Source: a virus
Virus record (IMG/VR): IMGVR_UViG_3300042691_009453
Span: 1-21,184 of that record
Direction: 5' to 3' (one strand)
DNA length: 21,184 nt
The position numbers and the translations under genes are program-made. Position 1 is the stretch's first letter. Each line of letters opens with the position of its first letter. Positions 286 to 21,184 of the stretch are shown piece after piece. The notes under the pieces are model-generated. The model saw nothing but the letters and a program-made list of their open reading frames with translations. It did not search any database and was not told where the DNA came from.

Positions 286-984
286 TTAATATAATTTTTG
301 GTATCCTGAAAGGTTGAATTTGTCTGGGTCTTGTATGTCCTCAAATTCTCTAAAACTTTTTTTGATGTCAGGTTGAGAATAATTTTGAACATCATCTGGT
401 CTTATGATATATTGTTCTCTTCCCATATCTTCAAAATCACCCTCTTTTTCCTGGAAGAATTGACTTAATTTTTGATTATATGGTCCTGAGTCCAAACTTC
501 TTAATTCCATTTTTTCTTCAGGTGTCTTAACTCTATATTTTTCAATCTTAGTTTCAATTGAATTTAATTTATCAATAATCTGATCCATATTAGCCAATTT
601 ACTTTCTAGGTCATCCAAGTGTTGGAAAAGGTTTTCAAAATAAGTTTCTTGTTTTTCTTCAACTGATTTTTGTCCTTTAACCAAGTCAGTGACTTTGATT
701 TTCTTTTCTTTAGTTTCGTCCTCTATTTTCTCAACCTCTGGGTCTTCACCAACATTTATTGGTTCAGCTGGAGGTAATGGTGCACCCTCACCACTAGGAG
801 GAGGAGGAGCGCCACCAGGAGGAGGAGGAACATCACCAGGGGGTGGGGGTGGTGGAGGTAGAGCCCCACCAGGAGGAGGAGGAACATCGCCACCAGGAGG
901 TGGGGGAAGTTCTTGTTCGTTAATATAAGTATTTATATCTTTATATCTTCTGATTTCATTTAAAATTTTGACATCAATTCTCAT
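286..984 (-). CDS. Unknown protein with PPPPGG repeats and a coiled coil (232 aa)
   Basis: I do not recognise this family. The N-terminus (residues 1-25, MRIDVKILNEIRRYKDINTY...) is a short amphipathic segment. Residues about 26-75 form a low-complexity run of PPPPGG-type units separated by short DV, AL or AP spacers. A charged region follows, with a likely coiled coil around residues 108-150 (YFENLFQHLDDLESKL then MDQIIDKLNSIETKIEKY). The C-terminal 80 residues are hydrophilic and end in GYQKLY. There is no signal peptide or membrane segment. The gene starts five bases after the stop of the 74-residue gene, so the two are probably co-transcribed and translationally coupled. Position after the baseplate genes suggests a virion or assembly role, but this is only inferred from context. 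The proline run resembles flexible or extended linkers. Confidence 0.75.
   Translation of the reverse strand: MRIDVKILNEIRRYKDINTYINEQELPPPPGGDVPPPPGGALPPPPPPPGDVPPPPGGAPPPPSGEGAPLPPAEPINVGEDPEVEKIEDETKEKKIKVTDLVKGQKSVEEKQETYFENLFQHLDDLESKLANMDQIIDKLNSIETKIEKYRVKTPEEKMELRSLDSGPYNQKLSQFFQEKEGDFEDMGREQYIIRPDDVQNYSQPDIKKSFREFEDIQDPDKFNLSGYQKLY
790..909 (-). repeat. PPPPGG-coding tandem repeat; G-rich on the plus strand
   Basis: The proline-glycine stretch of the 232-residue protein is encoded by imperfect tandem units. A 23-base stretch (plus strand ccaccaggaggaggaggaac followed by atc) occurs exactly at 812-834 and again at 866-888, 54 bases apart, with partial copies at about 790-808 and 890-908. 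The plus strand also contains a run of G-tracts at 839-857. This is a G+C-rich island in otherwise AT-rich DNA and a plausible site of copy-number slippage. Confidence 0.85.
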
Positions 985-13590: not shown

Positions 13591-15432
13591 TTATTGGTTA
13601 GTCGGTTGTTTTATTTCGTAATTTGTTGCACGTTTAGTAGCTTCATCTATTATTATGTCCGCTTTTCCTCTTTTAATTAAATCTAAAACTTGTTCTTCGG
13701 TCAAACCCTTTACATCGCCTTCAAAAACTACCTTCATCACCAAAGGTTCAGTAAATTTAACTTCACTCTTATTGGTTCCACCAGCAACATCCTTACTTTT
13801 TTCTAATACTCCTGTTGTTAAATTTTTTGTTGCAGGATTATTTAGAGCGGTATTTGTTTTATTAACGGTTTCAGTTAATGACCCAAAACTACCTTGTAAT
13901 TTTTCATGACTACTAATTAGTTCCCCACCTTTTGATGCGACATCACCAAAAACTTTAATAAGTGCGTTATCTGAATTTTTTAAGTCAGTCAATGCTGTAC
14001 CAATTCCAGTAACAAAATCATCGGCAGCACCACTAAGGTATTTTGATATCGTTTGACCACCTTCCGATAATCCACCAAGAAGATTACCACTATCATACCC
14101 TTTTTGTACTTGTCCTACAGCTGTATCAACAGTTTCTCTAATTTCTTTTGCCTGAAATCTTTCTCCAGCAAATACTTTTGGTACTGATTTTGCTATTTCT
14201 AATTGTGCTTGAAGTAGTGTTTCATTTGTTTGAGTTCCCGCTAAACCACCCGCAGTTCTTCCTGCGATAGATTTCAAATATCCAGCAGATTGTTCTTGAA
14301 TGGTTAATTGTTCTCGTGCTAAATCTTCCATTGATTTTGGTTTTGTACTTTCAAAGAATTTTTTCCTTTCTTCCTCCCCCATATTTTGGACTTTAACCAT
14401 CGCTTCATCTATTCTCAATTCTTCACCATTTACACGTAATTTGTATTCACCCCCTTTCATTTCTGACAAATTAGCAATTAATTCTTTTTCTTCTTGATTG
14501 AATTTATCCGAGAATGATATTTTTTTCATTTTATCTTCAAACTCAGCCGCAGACTTGGCCATTTTAGCAAATGTACCTGGTGTCATATTAAGTGCTTTTT
14601 CAACCTCCATCACTTGTTCTTTAGCTCCAGGTAATATTTCAAATTGTTTTGTCTTTTCGTTAAAATCAACAAACGATTTGGACATTTCGGCTATTTGTTT
14701 TTGAAATTCAGCTGGGTCGTTTCTAGACATATCCATCAATCTAAGTGGGTCTAATAAATCACTTTGAGCCACACCAAGTCTCTGTAATGCTGCGGCCATA
14801 TCAATAGCACCTTCGGGTTTAAATGCAGAGTCTAAAGTACCTTTAATATTATCAACACTTATTCTTAATTTAGTCGATTCAGTTACCATCTTTGCCAAAC
14901 CTTCAACACCATTTGAAAAATTGTATTTGTCCATCATATCCAAATTGCTAACAACTTGAGATGAAACAACTTTGACATTAATACCAGTTTCTCTGGCCAA
15001 ATTCACAACTTTGGTCATATTCTCACTCATATTGTAAATTGAAAAACCAGCATCTTTAAATCCTTTGGCCATAGTTTCTGTCGCTACACCGGTAACCTTA
15101 TGGGTCGCGTATATATCAGCGTAGGCGTCTTTTAATGGGATTACACTCCTATTCAAAGCCTTACCAATATTTTCTGCTATACCTGGTAAATCACTTAAAT
15201 TCCCACCCAATTGATTAACACTAACAACGGCATCGGCAAATGACCTTTTTATTTCAACAATACTTTCACGACCCATACCCATACTTTTACTAAAATTTAC
15301 TGAGAAATCTTCGTAGTCATCCATAATTTTTTGAATCTGTCCTGGGTCAACATTCGTCATAAATTGTTGTTTAACAAATTCCCCGTATTTTCCTAATTGT
15401 TTAAAAAAACCTTCAAATTCTTTTTCGTCCAT
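13591..15432 (-). CDS. Tail tape-measure protein candidate, gp29-like size (613 aa)
   Basis: The protein is almost entirely helical by composition, with long Ala/Lys/Glu-rich segments and repeated phrases typical of tape measures: NIGKALNRSVIPLKDAYADI (residues about 88-107), a METMAKGF/GFSIYNMSENMTK region, and LQRLGVAQSDLLDPL. The C-terminal part is Gly/Thr/Asn-rich. Its length is close to T4 gp29 (590 residues). Tape measures set tail length by spanning the tube, so 613 residues at about 1.5 angstrom each would give roughly 90 nm. The gene follows the chaperone with its candidate frameshift and precedes the baseplate genes, the usual tape-measure position. It has no obvious membrane segment or lytic motif. 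The start is chosen because its ATG follows the terminator and the 15-base motif. The call is based on context and composition, since tape measures rarely show motifs. Confidence 0.7.
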   Translation of the reverse strand: MDEKEFEGFFKQLGKYGEFVKQQFMTNVDPGQIQKIMDDYEDFSVNFSKSMGMGRESIVEIKRSFADAVVSVNQLGGNLSDLPGIAENIGKALNRSVIPLKDAYADIYATHKVTGVATETMAKGFKDAGFSIYNMSENMTKVVNLARETGINVKVVSSQVVSNLDMMDKYNFSNGVEGLAKMVTESTKLRISVDNIKGTLDSAFKPEGAIDMAAALQRLGVAQSDLLDPLRLMDMSRNDPAEFQKQIAEMSKSFVDFNEKTKQFEILPGAKEQVMEVEKALNMTPGTFAKMAKSAAEFEDKMKKISFSDKFNQEEKELIANLSEMKGGEYKLRVNGEELRIDEAMVKVQNMGEEERKKFFESTKPKSMEDLAREQLTIQEQSAGYLKSIAGRTAGGLAGTQTNETLLQAQLEIAKSVPKVFAGERFQAKEIRETVDTAVGQVQKGYDSGNLLGGLSEGGQTISKYLSGAADDFVTGIGTALTDLKNSDNALIKVFGDVASKGGELISSHEKLQGSFGSLTETVNKTNTALNNPATKNLTTGVLEKSKDVAGGTNKSEVKFTEPLVMKVVFEGDVKGLTEEQVLDLIKRGKADIIIDEATKRATNYEIKQPTNQ

Positions 15433-15441
15433 TTTATATTC

Positions 15442-15456
15442 GTTTTATTATAAATA
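15442..15456 (-). promoter_or_regulatory. Conserved 15-base upstream motif (copy before the tape-measure gene)
   Basis: The coding strand reads TATTTATAATAAAAC, identical to the copy at 1222-1236. It lies nine bases before the ATG at 15432 and begins only four bases after the terminator hairpin at 15461-15488, giving a compact stop-and-restart module. Confidence 0.55.
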
Positions 15457-15460
15457 CACA

Positions 15461-15488
15461 AAAAGACTAATTAAAAAACTAGTCTTTT
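15461..15488 (-). terminator. Terminator after the chaperone/frameshift ORF
   Basis: AAAAGACTA (15461-15469) pairs perfectly with TAGTCTTTT (15480-15488) around a ten-base loop. On the minus strand the 3' arm ends in a T run (TCTTTTTG). The stem begins inside the stop codon region of the shifted frame (TAG at 15481-15479), so it marks the true 3' end of the frameshifted gene and supports the view that this frame is translated. The stem is A/T-rich, hence of moderate strength, and could also work on the plus strand. Confidence 0.65.
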
Positions 15489-15641
15489 GGTGTATTCAGC
15501 TCAATTATTTTATTAATAAGGTATTTTCTTGAATATGTTGGCATTATTAAAAAATCAGACCAAGATGTTCTCAAGAATTTTGCCATCAAATAATACTCAT
15601 CCAGCAATATTGTTCTATAATCAGAAGAAAGGACGAAAAAA
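15479..15641 (-). CDS. Frameshift extension of the gp26-like chaperone (gpT/gp51-like, about 52 aa)
   Basis: Downstream of a run of six T (minus strand; plus positions 15636-15641) the frame that is +1 (equivalently -2) to the gp26-like ORF is open for about 52 codons to TAG at 15479. It encodes FVLSSDYRTILLDEYYLMAK, then FLRTSWSDFLIMPTYSRKYL and INKIIELNTPKD. The W.DF..MP.Y.R.YLI..I pattern resembles the C-terminal extensions of tail assembly chaperones made by frameshifting (lambda gpGT type) and the end of some gp26-like proteins. This frame's own ATG at 15661 lies upstream within the overlap and has no obvious initiation signal, so expression as a shifted fusion of about 297 residues is more likely than separate initiation. 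A sequencing error in the T run is the main alternative. Confidence 0.6.
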
Positions 15642-16373
15642 CTCCGCCCCAAAAGTAACATTGAAAGTTACTCTTTCTCCTGATGGGGCTAAAACTGTTC
15701 TACTTAAATCTAATGAGGGTTGATTATCTTTTATAAAGTTTCTGATATATTTTGAGTCGGCAATTGGTAATGTATCAACAAACATAGCAATATTATTTCT
15801 ATCAGTATCACCATTTATTTCTTGAATAATTTTATTCAATCTCCAAGTAATTTTTGGTGGTATCAACCCAATAGGATATTGTTCTGCCATTTTTTCCAAT
15901 TCATTAATTTCACCATACGTTAAAGGTTTTAATTTAACTTTAACATTTGTTTTAGGTAAAATTGTATTAAAAGTACCGTCTTCATTAGGGGTTTCCTTTG
16001 GTTGTTTAATATTTAATTCATCCAATAAGAAATCAACATTAAATGTTTTTTCTGTTTTTGGATCTGTTAGTGTAACGGAATATTCAGGACCAAATGCCGT
16101 ATTTCTTAAAAATATAAGGATTGCTTCAATGTCACCCTCCAATAATTCATCTGGTTTTAAATCAGGTTCATACATTTTATTTCTTATCAAGGAAAGAATT
16201 ATATTACCACCATTATTTTGATTTCCAGCTATTAAAAAGTTCTCATCATTTGCGGTTAGATAACCAACTTTTACAACTTTTTTCTTTGATTTATAAAATA
16301 TACCTTGAGATGGGAGAGGTACTAAATCATGGGGTAAATTAAAATCCATTTGACCATATGCTTCTGCGTTCAT
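15621..16373 (-). CDS. T4 gp26-like baseplate/tail assembly chaperone (250 aa, zero frame)
   Basis: The N-terminus (MDFNLPHDLVPLPSQGIFYK, residues about 9-28, then VKVGYLTANDENFL) matches the T4 base-plate protein family that includes gp26, which shows LPS.G..Y......V.V..LT..DE. Middle segments LLEGDIEAILIFLRNTAFGP and YSVTLTDPKTEKTFNVDF also fit. In related phages such proteins act as tail assembly chaperones that load the tape measure before tube polymerisation. The zero-frame product ends EFFRPFF just after the T6 run, while the +1 frame continues (see the extension). It lies between tube and tape measure, exactly where frameshifted chaperones occur in most long-tailed phages. The ATG at 16373 follows a terminator and a variant of the upstream motif. 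Confidence 0.75.
   Translation of the reverse strand: MNAEAYGQMDFNLPHDLVPLPSQGIFYKSKKKVVKVGYLTANDENFLIAGNQNNGGNIILSLIRNKMYEPDLKPDELLEGDIEAILIFLRNTAFGPEYSVTLTDPKTEKTFNVDFLLDELNIKQPKETPNEDGTFNTILPKTNVKVKLKPLTYGEINELEKMAEQYPIGLIPPKITWRLNKIIQEINGDTDRNNIAMFVDTLPIADSKYIRNFIKDNQPSLDLSRTVLAPSGERVTFNVTFGAEFFRPFF
15636..15641 (-). other. Candidate programmed frameshift slip site (six T)
   Basis: The zero frame reads GCG GAG TTT TTT CGT and meets TGA five codons after this run. A +1 slip of Phe-tRNA from TTT to TTT, or a -2 slip after the second TTT, keeps full pairing and continues in TTC GTC CTT. A purine-rich GGGGCGGAG lies directly upstream and could act as a Shine-Dalgarno-like stimulator of a +1 shift, as in prfB, although anti-Shine-Dalgarno use would be weak in a Bacteroidota host. 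Confidence 0.5.
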
Positions 16374-16399: not shown

Positions 16400-16432
16400 A
16401 AAAATCCTAAATGTATATGCTACACTTAGGAT
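16400..16432 (-). terminator. Rho-independent terminator after the tail tube gene
   Basis: On the minus strand a 12-base-pair stem (ATCCTAAGTGTA with TACATTTAGGAT, one G-T wobble; plus arms 16404-16415 and 16421-16432) closes a five-base loop and is followed by TTTTTATTT. The T run lies only on the minus-strand 3' side, so it is oriented for the tube transcript, 23 bases beyond the tube stop codon. Confidence 0.85.
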
Positions 16433-16454
16433 TAAGAATTATAAAATAATAAGA

Positions 16455-16943
16455 TTAATAAACCAAGATACAACGATCCATTCTCAAACTTGTTGTTATT
16501 TTTGCAATCGCCTCACTACTATAACCTAAACCACCAAAATCAGCACTTGTTATAAAACACCCTTCTAATATCCATTTTTCAACAACAACACCCGTTGGAT
16601 CTAACATCTCTAAGTCTACGTTTTTCTTATATCCTGCAGCATAACCCATCCTACCTGTCACAGATTCAGCACATAGACGAATCCATTCCATAATTGCTTG
16701 TGACGCTGATGGACCAATTGGGTCTCTAAAAGTAACACTAATTTCATTCCATTCGAATCTACCCGCAACATATGTTGAGGTATTTAAAAAAGGAATAGGT
16801 GTTGCGTTTATTTTAATTGAAGGTCTTTTAGATGTTTCAACAAACCATTCATTAATCCCTAATGAAGATGGGAAACGCATAATAAACCTATTCTCTCTTT
16901 TCGGTTCATAAGGAACCGGCATTTTCATTAATAAATCAGCCAT
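16455..16943 (-). CDS. Tail tube protein, gp19-like (162 aa)
   Basis: Length and sequence agree with T4 gp19-type tube proteins (163 residues in T4). ENRFIMRFPSSLGINEWFVE (residues about 17-36) is the N-terminal strand region, followed by RPSIKINATPIPFLNTSTYV and the family hallmark FEWNEISVTFRDPIGPSASQ (residues about 63-82) with W.....V.F.DP. The C-terminal half has WILEGCFITSADFGGLGYSS, which matches the conserved W.L.GC.....DFG.L.Y.......I..TL..D..... ending. Hexameric rings of this protein stack to form the inner tube through which DNA passes. It lies upstream of the chaperone and tape measure and has its own terminator and an upstream 15-base motif, consistent with high-level expression. 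This is one of the firmest calls in the window. Confidence 0.92.
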   Translation of the reverse strand: MADLLMKMPVPYEPKRENRFIMRFPSSLGINEWFVETSKRPSIKINATPIPFLNTSTYVAGRFEWNEISVTFRDPIGPSASQAIMEWIRLCAESVTGRMGYAAGYKKNVDLEMLDPTGVVVEKWILEGCFITSADFGGLGYSSEAIAKITTSLRMDRCILVY

Positions 16944-17092: not shown

Positions 17093-17923
17093 TTATTTAA
17101 TTTCTATATTAATATATTTTTTCTTAACATCTTTAGGATTTGAAGTATCATATATTACAAATTTTACTTTAGGATATTTCTTCAATAATTCTTTCCTAAT
17201 GAATTCTTCCATTTTTTTGATGTTACCTAAATCATCATCACTAAATCCAATTTTAACTCCCTCTCTATCTGGGTTGTCAACTAAGTCTCCAACTTTTTTA
17301 ACAACACTCTCAACATATTTCTCAAATGCCATTGTCTTAGCAACTTCAGGGTTTTCAGCTCCTCCTTTTGATTGGTATTCAGTTTTAAATTCTTCTGAAG
17401 AAACTGCAGATAATTGTTGATTATTTAAATAATCATCAATACTTTTATATTTCTTTTCTTTTAAATTTTTATTCATAGTTTCTTTTTCTTCTTCAGAAAA
17501 AGTCATATCAATTAAAACTTTGATACCCTTTCTTAAAGAATCTTTACTTGTACCACGAGCTGTAATGATTGAAAAATCATATCCTTTTATTAAAGCTTTT
17601 TTGAACTTTTTGAAACTAGGTCCAAATTCATTAGCATTAATAGCATCTTTAGTATGTTGAATAAAAATTTCAGTTTTAAAATCTTTGAAGGCGTCATTTG
17701 GATTATTGTTTTTTAATCTCAATTTTTCCCCATCAAGTTCATGTCGTATCTCTCTAAACTTTTCTGTTGATACTTCATAATCTTTCCAACCACCATTTGA
17801 TTTTTTCTCCAAATGTATTTTTGTTGGCATATTTAAAACATTATCATCCCAATCAAATGAATAACCCTTTTCATAAAATTCTAATATTCTTCTATATTGG
17901 TTTTCAGTTACTAATATTCTCAT
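17093..17923 (-). CDS. HAD-superfamily phosphatase-like protein (276 aa)
   Basis: HAD motifs are visible in order: FDWDDNV with the nucleophile/acid pair D24 and D26, SIITARG with T121 as motif II, and IGFSDDDLGNI with D229-D231 as motif IV; the Lys of motif III is not clearly assignable. This points to a metal-dependent phosphoryl-transfer enzyme, probably a phosphatase; the substrate cannot be told. Residues about 36-100 would form the cap. The first 16 residues (MRILVTENQYRRILEF) look like a short tag preceding the catalytic domain. The gene lies alone between sheath and tube, with a terminator upstream and its own upstream motif, so it is an independently controlled insertion within the structural cluster (moron-like). 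It is very Lys-rich and more A/T-rich than the sheath gene. A polynucleotide kinase 3'-phosphatase-type or 5'-nucleotidase-type role is possible. Confidence 0.75.
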   Translation of the reverse strand: MRILVTENQYRRILEFYEKGYSFDWDDNVLNMPTKIHLEKKSNGGWKDYEVSTEKFREIRHELDGEKLRLKNNNPNDAFKDFKTEIFIQHTKDAINANEFGPSFKKFKKALIKGYDFSIITARGTSKDSLRKGIKVLIDMTFSEEEKETMNKNLKEKKYKSIDDYLNNQQLSAVSSEEFKTEYQSKGGAENPEVAKTMAFEKYVESVVKKVGDLVDNPDREGVKIGFSDDDLGNIKKMEEFIRKELLKKYPKVKFVIYDTSNPKDVKKKYINIEIK

Positions 17924-18005: not shown

Positions 18006-21000
18006 TTATATATTCTCAAACGAAGCACCTGTTGGAGTAATATAGAATGTGATATCTATAAATTCTAAGGCTCTTGTTGGTTTGATATAAATCTTACCTG
18101 TCAATTGGTTTCTATCCAAATCGGCTGGGTCTGAAGAAACTGTTACACGGAAATCAAACAAACCTCTATCTCTTCTGATAGCGTCTAGAATTGGATTAAC
18201 CGCATCTAAAAAGTCTTGTCTAACCTTGGCATCGTTTTGTTCAAATAACAACCTTACAGATACCGCAGAAATCAATTTACGTGCTTGTAATAACAATCTT
18301 CTTACATTGATTCTGTCCAATGCTGATTCTCTAATTTGTAAGGTCTTGTTACCCCAAATTACAGTTCCAACATCAGAGAAAGTTGCAATTGGATTAATTC
18401 TACCTTTGTATAAAGTATCTCTTTCTTCTTGAGTTAGTTTTCGTCTAGCCTTAACCGCGTTAACAATACCACGAGTATAACCAGCCGTAGCAAACCAAGG
18501 AAACGCAATATTATCAGTTAATGCTAAGTTTCTACATACTTCAGCAGTTGGTGGAATATAAACCTGAGTGTTATTAACCGTGTCTCTTGTTAATACCCAA
18601 GGATAATATGTTGCAGTATAGTTAGAATCAATATTACTTTCTTCCAAACTATCAACAGCTTCTTGAGGGAAAATACTATTGATTGGGTCACTAGTATTTG
18701 GTACTAACATATTATAGTCAGGTGTTGTACAAATATAGATTGAATCGGCTCTATCAAACTCTATCATCTCTATTGCCGCCTCAACCAAGTTAGAATTAAA
18801 CACATAATCTATACCTGGTGTTGTGAACACGTTAATATTTACCGCTTCAGGATTAGCAAATGTTTGTTGTCCTAACAAGTAAGCATAGTAGTCAGTGTTA
18901 GCGTAATCTTCACTGTTATTACCAACTGTAATACGTTTAAATGTTCCACTACCAGTTGCACTTGGATATCTTAATGAAGTACAAACACCTCTTAAGAAAC
19001 CAGGTCCTCCTAATCTGAACTCGTCACTATTTGATCTTCTTTCTCTATAAACATCCCAACCATCAAAACCACCTTGACACAATAAAGTAAATTTACGTGC
19101 GTTTAATCTATAATATGGGTTTGTTGCGTTATCTGGGTCTGTTATAAATTCACCAGAACCAACTTGGAACGCGGATGTACCACTAGTTGTAAAGAAGTTA
19201 GATATTGTAATGGCCGAAGCATTCTTATCCATATGGAAACCTTGAGTTTTAAACGCCCAATTAGTGCCAACACCTTCACAAGTATCTATTGGATTTTGTT
19301 TTCCTTTATATCCAAAGAAATCAATGTCATATCCAATAGTATCTGAAATACCTAAATATGTTCTTTTTACATTATCCCCACCACTTCTAGATACATCATC
19401 AGCACCCGATGTTAAACCAAATGGTGGATTGTATATAACTTCACCAGGGAAATCATATTTAGTTTTATAGATTGGGAATGGAGATTTAACACCTGCATAC
19501 TCTCTAAACATATAACCCTCAAATCCACAAGGTAAGGCATCAGTCGGAGCATCTTCATTCATCTCCAGCATCACATATTTTGAATTCATTTGGAACTCAC
19601 CATTACTAGTACCAATCTTTTTAGCGATAAAACTATTTTCATTGGGGTTCATCGTACAATTGGTGAATTTCTCAATTACCACAGGATTAGCATCAGTATC
19701 AAAGAAATCACGTACAAATACATCAAATGTCCCATTATTGAACGACATATTAGCAATTGATATTTTTACTTCCGTATTAGCGGCATCTCCATCAGCTATT
19801 GTAATAAACTTAAATAGATTGAATACTTTATTACCTCTTAATTCAGAAACAACCCAAGGTGATTCCGGTGATTGATATTGTTCCAAATACCACCCAATTG
19901 ATGTTGATACTGTAGACCTAGCAGTGTCTAAAGAAGTTAAATTACAATTCAAACCTCTGATATAACCTTTTCTGTAAGCGTAATTTAATAAACTTTGGAA
20001 TCTTTCTTCCAAAAATAATGGTACAACAGTTCTAGGTTTTGCAAAGTTAGAGTAACCAAATACCTTACCAATATAATTAACATTTGAATTTGAGAATGAA
20101 GTCTCAAAGAAGAAAGTATCTCCGTCTTTATCTGTTACATTTACCCCAAAAGTTGAATATGGGTTTTTAGTTACCGCAGAATATGTTCCAGTACAAGTCA
20201 ATGACACATCAGTCAAACCTGTTACTTGATAAGCTGGACCTGTACTATCAGTACCATAAGTTGCAATACCCCTTGAACGTAATGTAGCCAAAACCAAATC
20301 ATCATAATTAGTGTAAGCCATACCTGAGAATACATAAATTGTACCCACTAATTTACCCGAATAACAATTAACAACCGTTGGTGTTGGTGACGGTGTTGGG
20401 GTACTTGTTGGTATTGGTGAAGCACAAGGATTAGTTGGTGATGGAGATGGAGCTGGTGGTGCCGCAGATGTTGTTGTTGTCACAGGCATCATAGTCAAAC
20501 CTGATACTATTGAATAGTATGAAAAACCAGTATACATTGAATTAATACCAGTATGGTCAAATAGAGCATAATACCAAGGGTCATTAGCTGGGGCGTTGTA
20601 ATTAATAAGACTAGCATCAACATTATCTACTTTAAACACATTAGTTGCGGCAGTATATCCCGTTGAAACTAAGGCAGTGTAATCTGAACCCGAAATTGGT
20701 CCATAGTAGTAAATTGAATTATCATCCAAACTTGGGGTAATTAATACATCCAATATTTGTTGATACATATTATCCCTCAAGGTACTAATTGAACCATTGA
20801 ATTGTTCAAACGGTAAATCAATTTTACTTAGAATTAATGGGTCAATACTTGATGTAAAGGCAATTGTTTCCACATTGTTAGTACAACCAGTAAAGTCAAT
20901 TGAATAATCATAGATTGAGTACCCAGTACAAACTGGTTCACAAGTACCTGATGGTATTGTTGAACCCAAACATAAGAAATCAACGGTTGATTGGTCAACA

Positions 21001-21184
21001 TTTGCAATTGTTGATATAGACCAAGATGGTCCCGCATCATAACCTGATAATCCCAATATTCTTGTTACAAATAATTGATTAGATTGTTGCAAATACGCCT
21101 TGGCAATATAAGCTGCCTCATATTTTGGTATTTGTGTGTTGATGAATTTTTCTGGTGAAGTACCACCAAAGTAGGCTGTGAACT
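18006..21184 (-). CDS. Tail sheath protein, enlarged; 5' end cut by the window edge (at least 1059 aa)
   Basis: The C-terminal 170 residues are a clear contractile sheath domain: GYTRGIVNAVKARRKLTQEE, then GRINPIATFSDVGTVIWGNKT, then ALDRINVRRLLLQARKLI, LLFEQND, and finally IKPTRALEFI with a GASFENI end. The frame is open through the right edge: before the leucine codon TTG at 21092, which could be mistaken for a start, it reads FGGTSPEKFINTQIPKYEAA then YIAKAYLQQSNQLFVTRILG, a typical sheath N-terminal region. T4 gp18 has 659 residues, so this protein carries about 400 extra, including a Cys-containing beta region, a Pro/Ser/Thr linker and probably surface domains. Sheath subunits stack around the tube and contract to drive it through the cell envelope. 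The gene is richer in G+C than its neighbours, as expected for a highly expressed structural gene. Confidence 0.92.
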   Translation of the reverse strand, partial: FTAYFGGTSPEKFINTQIPKYEAAYIAKAYLQQSNQLFVTRILGLSGYDAGPSWSISTIANVDQSTVDFLCLGSTIPSGTCEPVCTGYSIYDYSIDFTGCTNNVETIAFTSSIDPLILSKIDLPFEQFNGSISTLRDNMYQQILDVLITPSLDDNSIYYYGPISGSDYTALVSTGYTAATNVFKVDNVDASLINYNAPANDPWYYALFDHTGINSMYTGFSYYSIVSGLTMMPVTTTTSAAPPAPSPSPTNPCASPIPTSTPTPSPTPTVVNCYSGKLVGTIYVFSGMAYTNYDDLVLATLRSRGIATYGTDSTGPAYQVTGLTDVSLTCTGTYSAVTKNPYSTFGVNVTDKDGDTFFFETSFSNSNVNYIGKVFGYSNFAKPRTVVPLFLEERFQSLLNYAYRKGYIRGLNCNLTSLDTARSTVSTSIGWYLEQYQSPESPWVVSELRGNKVFNLFKFITIADGDAANTEVKISIANMSFNNGTFDVFVRDFFDTDANPVVIEKFTNCTMNPNENSFIAKKIGTSNGEFQMNSKYVMLEMNEDAPTDALPCGFEGYMFREYAGVKSPFPIYKTKYDFPGEVIYNPPFGLTSGADDVSRSGGDNVKRTYLGISDTIGYDIDFFGYKGKQNPIDTCEGVGTNWAFKTQGFHMDKNASAITISNFFTTSGTSAFQVGSGEFITDPDNATNPYYRLNARKFTLLCQGGFDGWDVYRERRSNSDEFRLGGPGFLRGVCTSLRYPSATGSGTFKRITVGNNSEDYANTDYYAYLLGQQTFANPEAVNINVFTTPGIDYVFNSNLVEAAIEMIEFDRADSIYICTTPDYNMLVPNTSDPINSIFPQEAVDSLEESNIDSNYTATYYPWVLTRDTVNNTQVYIPPTAEVCRNLALTDNIAFPWFATAGYTRGIVNAVKARRKLTQEERDTLYKGRINPIATFSDVGTVIWGNKTLQIRESALDRINVRRLLLQARKLISAVSVRLLFEQNDAKVRQDFLDAVNPILDAIRRDRGLFDFRVTVSSDPADLDRNQLTGKIYIKPTRALEFIDITFYITPTGASFENI
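20370..20482 (-). repeat. Pro/Ser/Thr-rich low-complexity linker in the sheath protein
   Basis: These codons give TTTTSAAPPAPSPSPTNPCA followed by SPIPTSTPTPSPTPT. The stretch separates an N-terminal beta region from the domain starting NCYSGKLVGTIYVF and looks like a flexible linker tethering an inserted domain. Confidence 0.8.

Follow-up and report, generated by a model that had tools for sequence, protein, structure and literature searches.

Evidence for a programmed +1 frameshift in the gp26-type tail assembly chaperone gene of a distant T4-like phage

How can a T4-like phage produce a short and a long tail assembly chaperone from a single gene whose reading frame closes before the long form is complete? 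Frameshifting in the chaperone gene has been described as conserved in long-tailed phages, with the exception of T4 (2016 Atkins review, PMC5009743); lambda (gpG/gpGT) and phage Mu both obtain two chaperone forms from one gene in this way, and Mu uses a −2 shift for it (PMC5009743). As cited in later papers (PMC10885494, PMC12846349), T4 gp26 and gp51 were recognized as tail assembly chaperones by Vladimirov, Gautam and Davidson (2022, Virology 566:9-15), who are credited there with explaining the T4 case by separate short and long genes. Some T4-like phages are also known to carry a short gene together with a longer fused gene (PRFect paper, PMC10885494), and poly-T sites have been presented as −1 signals in the chaperone genes of T4-like phages (phage Adele paper, PMC12846349).

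The DNA studied here, to which we will refer as “the window,” is the IMG/VR virus record IMGVR_UViG_3300042691_009453, 21,184 bases long, in which a gp26-like gene and a +1 reading frame overlap. We propose that this locus encodes both chaperone forms by means of a +1 slip on UUU before CGU, a reading to which we assign a probability of approximately 0.88. The original prediction suggested that the locus would extend the frameshift-chaperone rule to gp26-type proteins. There is good support for a programmed frameshift in a gp26-type chaperone from a T4-like phage, but the general rule is not new, since gp26 and gp51 of T4 had already been published as chaperones. What appears to be new is a +1 class of T4-like phages, together with its upstream hairpin: no description of a +1 class of T4-like chaperone was found in the literature searched, in which the 2022 paper is represented by the papers citing it and may itself mention a +1 case.

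The gp26-like gene and its +1-frame extension

The gene belongs to a contractile-tail cluster on the minus strand, consisting of the sheath gene, a gene without family, the tail tube gene, the gp26-like gene and a gene of 613 aa. Its zero frame (15621..16373, minus strand) encodes a short form of 250 aa, matching PF12322 (50.8 bits, above the gathering cut-off of 24.5) and phrog_150 (E 1.9e-14), the family that comprises T4 gp26 and gp51; PF12322 is also matched in 25/25 relatives. The upstream neighbor encodes the tail tube protein (16455..16943, minus strand; phrog_4542, E 1.6e-25). On the other side, the 613-aa gene (13591..15432, minus strand) occupies the tape-measure position, and a search for its family in PHROG and Pfam gave no match in the window; the records of phages immuto and LIS04 name the next large gene as that of the tape measure. 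The predicted location between tail tube and tape measure genes is thus confirmed for the tube, and is positional for the tape measure.

Other features of the window are worth recording. A terminator-like hairpin followed by a T tail lies between the tail tube and gp26-like genes (16403-16433). The gene situated between those for the tail tube and the sheath (276 aa, 17093-17923, minus strand) encodes an FDWDDNVL motif recalling HAD-type phosphatases, and no Pfam family match was obtained for it. The tail sheath (18006-21182, minus strand) is very long (1058 aa, open at the contig end) and contains a Pro/Thr/Ser-rich stretch, SPSPTNPCASPIPTSTPTPSPTPT, whereas a Pro/Gly repeat region with PPPPGG units is present in a 232-aa protein (286-984, minus strand).

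On the minus strand, the zero frame of the gp26-like gene ends as GAG TTT (15641-15639) TTT (15638-15636) CGT CCT TTC TTC TGA (15623-15621), closing five codons after a T6 run (15636..15641), as had been stated beforehand. The +1 frame, already open before this run, continues for 51 codons past the slip (15482..15634), from GTC (15634) to TAG (15481-15479); the long open frame expected earlier is therefore present, its exact length after the slip being 51 codons instead of about 52. Fused to the zero-frame part, the extension yields a long form of 297 aa. It contains the anticipated W.DF..MP.Y.R.YLI motif, in the form W.DF..MP.Y.RKYLI. The extension was also expected to stop exactly at a terminator: its stop codon is indeed spanned by a long inverted repeat (15451..15498, minus strand; 21 pairs, −22.2 kcal/mol, z −7.9), which is a possible terminator and beyond which the next gene begins after some 20 bases, but the terminator scan did not call it.

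Homologues were drawn from IMG/VR and phage records, giving 187 non-redundant loci. Eight of them have a −1-frame extension (seven clear −1-class phages and the divergent LR756511) and seven run off the contig, while the other 172 all have a +1-frame extension of at least 100 nt. The comparison of overlap and run proposed in the original prediction thus shows the extension kept in 172/172 complete loci of the +1 lineage; as a control, +1 extensions of at least 100 nt were found for 36 of 374 other genes of the same loci (9.6%). Cultured phages from six host genera are among the relatives that keep the extension, and the isolates carrying it include Flavobacterium phage immuto and Bacillus phage SP-15. 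In the jumbo phage relative LR756511 (L024), the zero frame ends differently, and the −1 frame from GGTTTTTTCTTC enters a recognizable extension, YLMDEQFFFLYHLHVGRKDFLQYPINERKYIIHKFIEQ.

For finer comparison, we considered the window's own clade (clade A, 96 rows, one of which, L139, is in truth an SP-15-like sequence) and clade B (75 rows). Both sets were selected for extensions of at least 40 codons, so that the presence of the extension is read from the 187-locus census; the rows, being related by kinship, are not independent. The extension is under purifying selection, with a dN/dS of about 0.15 in the +1 frame and of at least 1 in the other two. In clade A, internal stops are absent from the +1 frame in all 96 rows (0/96), and interrupt the other frames in 89/96 and 96/96.

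The slip site and the direction of the shift

The second Phe codon of the run is TTT in 96/96 rows of clade A, and the equivalent position in the 75 rows of clade B is UUU in 70, CUU in four and CUA in one. UUC, which accounts for 24% of the Phe codons elsewhere in the genes, never occupies it in either clade. The codon that follows is CGN throughout clade A (96/96) and TGG in most of clade B (64/75), the combination CUU UGG being used by four relatives. These Arg codons are rare ones: CGG and CGC together fill 61/96 clade A sites against 2/910 of the Arg codons elsewhere, where AGA is the main Arg codon, and in the window's genes CGC and CGG are absent and CGT represents 25 of 6,744 codons. 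In 169/171 rows the slip codon is followed by a T or a C, as required for re-pairing in +1. The overall pattern is YUU-Y and then a slow codon, in which the P-site tRNA can re-pair one base forward to UUU or UUC; there are exceptions, as isolate LIS04 would slip to TTA and isolate LR756508 would need to slip one codon earlier. Some of the conservation 3′ of the slip codon is ascribable to the demands of the +1 reading frame.

Based on this pattern, the majority of ribosomes would terminate at 15621 and release the 250-aa short form. We infer that others, at some rate, stall when UUU (15638-15636) holds peptidyl-tRNA-Phe and the A site presents the rare CGU (15633..15635). The tRNA would then move one base ahead onto UUC (15637-15635), which fits its GAA anticodon, and translation would continue in the +1 frame to give the 297-aa long form, with GAEFFVLSSDYR as the predicted junction peptide of the fused product.

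Other explanations can be given for the overlapping frames. The +1 ORF might be a separate small gene, similar to the small gp51 found in cyanophage annotations, translated from an internal start or by re-initiation after the stop. There is an ATG at 15661 in the window's +1 frame, and the tail is annotated as a gene of its own in the records of Sf-FS3 and Cygsa01. In the cyanophages (L219-L298), the heptamer T TTT TTC is maintained in 54/54 non-redundant loci, as is an ATG located two bases past the zero-frame stop, and the gp51-like product may there come from −1 frameshifting as well as from re-initiation. Nonetheless, from the upstream stop to the sixth codon of the extension there is no ATG, GTG or TTG in 11/96 rows of clade A and 39/75 of clade B, and no ATG in 60/96 and 61/75, respectively; besides, a separate gene leaves the T run and the rare codon unexplained. 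We therefore consider it improbable.

A −2 shift, such as that of Mu, would reach the same frame with one additional Phe, the junction residues being EFFFV instead of the EFFV produced by a +1 shift. On TTT TTT the P-site tRNA could re-pair two bases back in most rows, and the earlier view that TTT re-pairing makes both shifts easy is correct to this extent; it does not hold for −2 as the shared mechanism, since 12 relatives with TTC TTT retain the extension, where re-pairing in +1 is preserved and a −2 shift would have to pair on TCT. The T or C following the slip codon likewise matches what a +1 shift needs. Judged by these sequence comparisons, +1 is favored over −2, which we regard as rather improbable.

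Slippage of the RNA polymerase on the T run, the long form being translated from an edited mRNA, seems very unlikely: most rows do have a run of T6 or T7, but six or seven T are short for known transcriptional slippage, and the run is broken in TTC TTT and TTT CTT rows that nevertheless keep the extension. Finally, a sequencing or assembly error in the homopolymer of a metagenome contig, by which T6 would really be T5 or T7 within one single ORF, is rejected, as about 170 non-redundant contigs, and cultured phages as well, show the identical break.

A covarying hairpin upstream of the slip site

Besides the proposed slip site itself, clade A has a second conserved element, unremarked in the original prediction, namely an mRNA hairpin located 5′ of the slip codon (15646..15689, minus strand). 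Its outer stem pairs 15689-15684 with 15651-15646 and its inner stem 15674-15667 with 15659-15652, and in clade A 7 nt separate its 3′ end from the P-site codon. It lies within a stretch of approximately 28 codons preceding the slip site in which synonymous changes are suppressed. Across 75 sequences, pairing is maintained in 96.7% of the cases for the outer stem and in 78.2% for the inner one, and the cells changed on both sides amount to 78, compared with 31.3 (sd 4.7) in shuffled versions and at most 59 in slid ones. The window's hairpin has a folding energy of −16.3 kcal/mol (z −2.75); for clade A, the mean z is −1.95 at the hairpin position and ranges from −0.27 to 0.51 elsewhere in the gene. 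Two sequences (L046 and L083) adopt other folds in isolation, although their outer-stem changes are compensatory. The hairpin is seen in clade A only, clade B giving no signal upstream (mean z −0.51).

The GGGGCGGAG stretch described as lying directly upstream of the run is present, and its GGGGC (15650-15646) proves to be the 3′ arm of the covarying hairpin. In this sense, a slip on GGG-G at codon −5 was considered and rejected: GGG is conserved in clade A, yet L046 and L058 have GGT together with a matching change in the opposite arm, so that the conservation of this codon is better explained by the stem. A Shine-Dalgarno element 3 nt before the P-site codon, like that of prfB, was also discarded, as the window has GGAG but the last base is G, A, C or T in relatives. 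Regarding downstream structure, the 44-nt stretch starting 10 nt past the slip codon folded only slightly more stably than its shuffles (mean z −0.27 in clade A and −0.53 in clade B).

Upstream hairpins have been discussed in relation to frameshifting (PMC10885494), and a 5′ stem loop has been described for T4 gene 60 (PMC5009743). In the window, refolding of the hairpin just behind the ribosome would be a plausible forward push and would probably favor the forward slip. We see the chances as even that a hairpin directly behind the ribosome stimulates the conserved +1 shift from UUU when a rare sense codon follows. If true, this would add, to the −1 class and the T4 gene pair, a third route to the same two products within one chaperone family.

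Relationship with T4 gp51 and with other frameshifting systems

No direct match of the extension was found among the PHROG and Pfam families, and its relationships were established by comparison of profiles. Between the extensions of clades A and B there is a match of 98.6% (E 6e-16). When pooled, the +1 extensions match the pool of −1-frame ones at 93.2%, and the latter pool in turn matches the C-tail of T4 gp51 at 94.0%; for the cyanophage tail, matches were obtained with phrog_634 (baseplate hub assembly catalyst, E 8e-27) and with the final portion of phrog_150. Fused full-length profiles, which align through the junction, gave 99.7% for the +1 against the −1 class (E 4e-26) and 99.2% for the −1 class against gp51 (E 6e-20), whereas the +1 class, when compared directly with gp51, gave a weak 53%. 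Through these profile chains, the extension would correspond to the −1-frame tails of cyanophages and to the in-frame C-tail of T4 gp51; the suggested kinship with gp51 is thereby supported by a chain of matches and not by a direct one.

For structure prediction we used the fused form from a relative, L033, whose zero-frame part shares 66% identity with that of the window; in the model (pLDDT 86.4, pTM 0.80) the extension is predicted as three helices. When 986 PDB chains were compared with the chaperone part, 2ob9, the tail assembly chaperone of HK97, ranked first (Z 5.6; 80 residues with an rmsd of 3.4), a score below the level of a sure match; matches of the model among viral models include T4-like baseplate hub assembly proteins. 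A PDB sequence search with the chaperone profile gave nothing of note. By analogy with lambda gpG/gpGT, the chaperone part may bind the tape measure protein, while tube subunits may be recruited by the helical domain that the extension adds.

In a tree of 50 rows, a fully supported branch separates the +1 users from T4 gp26/gp51 and most −1 users. Atu_ph07 and PA5oct, both of the −1 type, are placed among the +1 rows, a placement that is unsure given the long branches of PA5oct and of the pair.

Compared with known systems, T4 gp26/gp51 and the window have PF12322 in common, as well as a short form and a long form bearing a C-terminal tail, but T4 uses two genes without frameshift where the window uses one gene and a +1 shift. 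The gp26 genes of cyanophage, Rhizobium and phiAS5-type phages share the family, the place of the shift and a homologous tail; they enter the −1 frame at U UUU UUC or a similar sequence, and the window the +1 frame. Lambda and Mu likewise differ from the window in direction, with −1 and −2 against +1. For the haloarchaeal myovirus HSTV-2 (KC117376), the chaperone frameshift has been considered very likely +1 (PMC5009743). It is a shift between tube and tape measure genes, as would be that of the window if the 613-aa gene is the tape measure, and the zero frame near the end of the short form also reads TTT CGC (L309:15480-15515), like the TTT CGN of clade A; HSTV-2 belongs, however, to another virus group with an archaeal host, and the likeness is one of arrangement and site. 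On the other hand, the prfB +1 site (CUU UGA) shares with clades A and B a P-site YUU that re-pairs to UUU or UUC and a slow A site; prfB combines a stop codon with a conserved Shine-Dalgarno 3 nt away, and the two clades have a sense codon (CGN or UGG), with the hairpin in clade A.

To our knowledge, few bacterial +1 sites at sense codons have been studied well; the present one is available in about 170 natural variants and is accompanied, in one of the clades, by a covarying 5′ hairpin. The probable users of the +1 shift form a large group of T4-like phages that are distant and, for the most part, uncultured; their annotation is hereby corrected, as public records give the extension as separate small hypothetical genes or omit it. 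The family as a whole constitutes a natural experiment on the way a protein ratio can be kept through changes of mechanism, from +1 and −1 frameshifting to separate genes.
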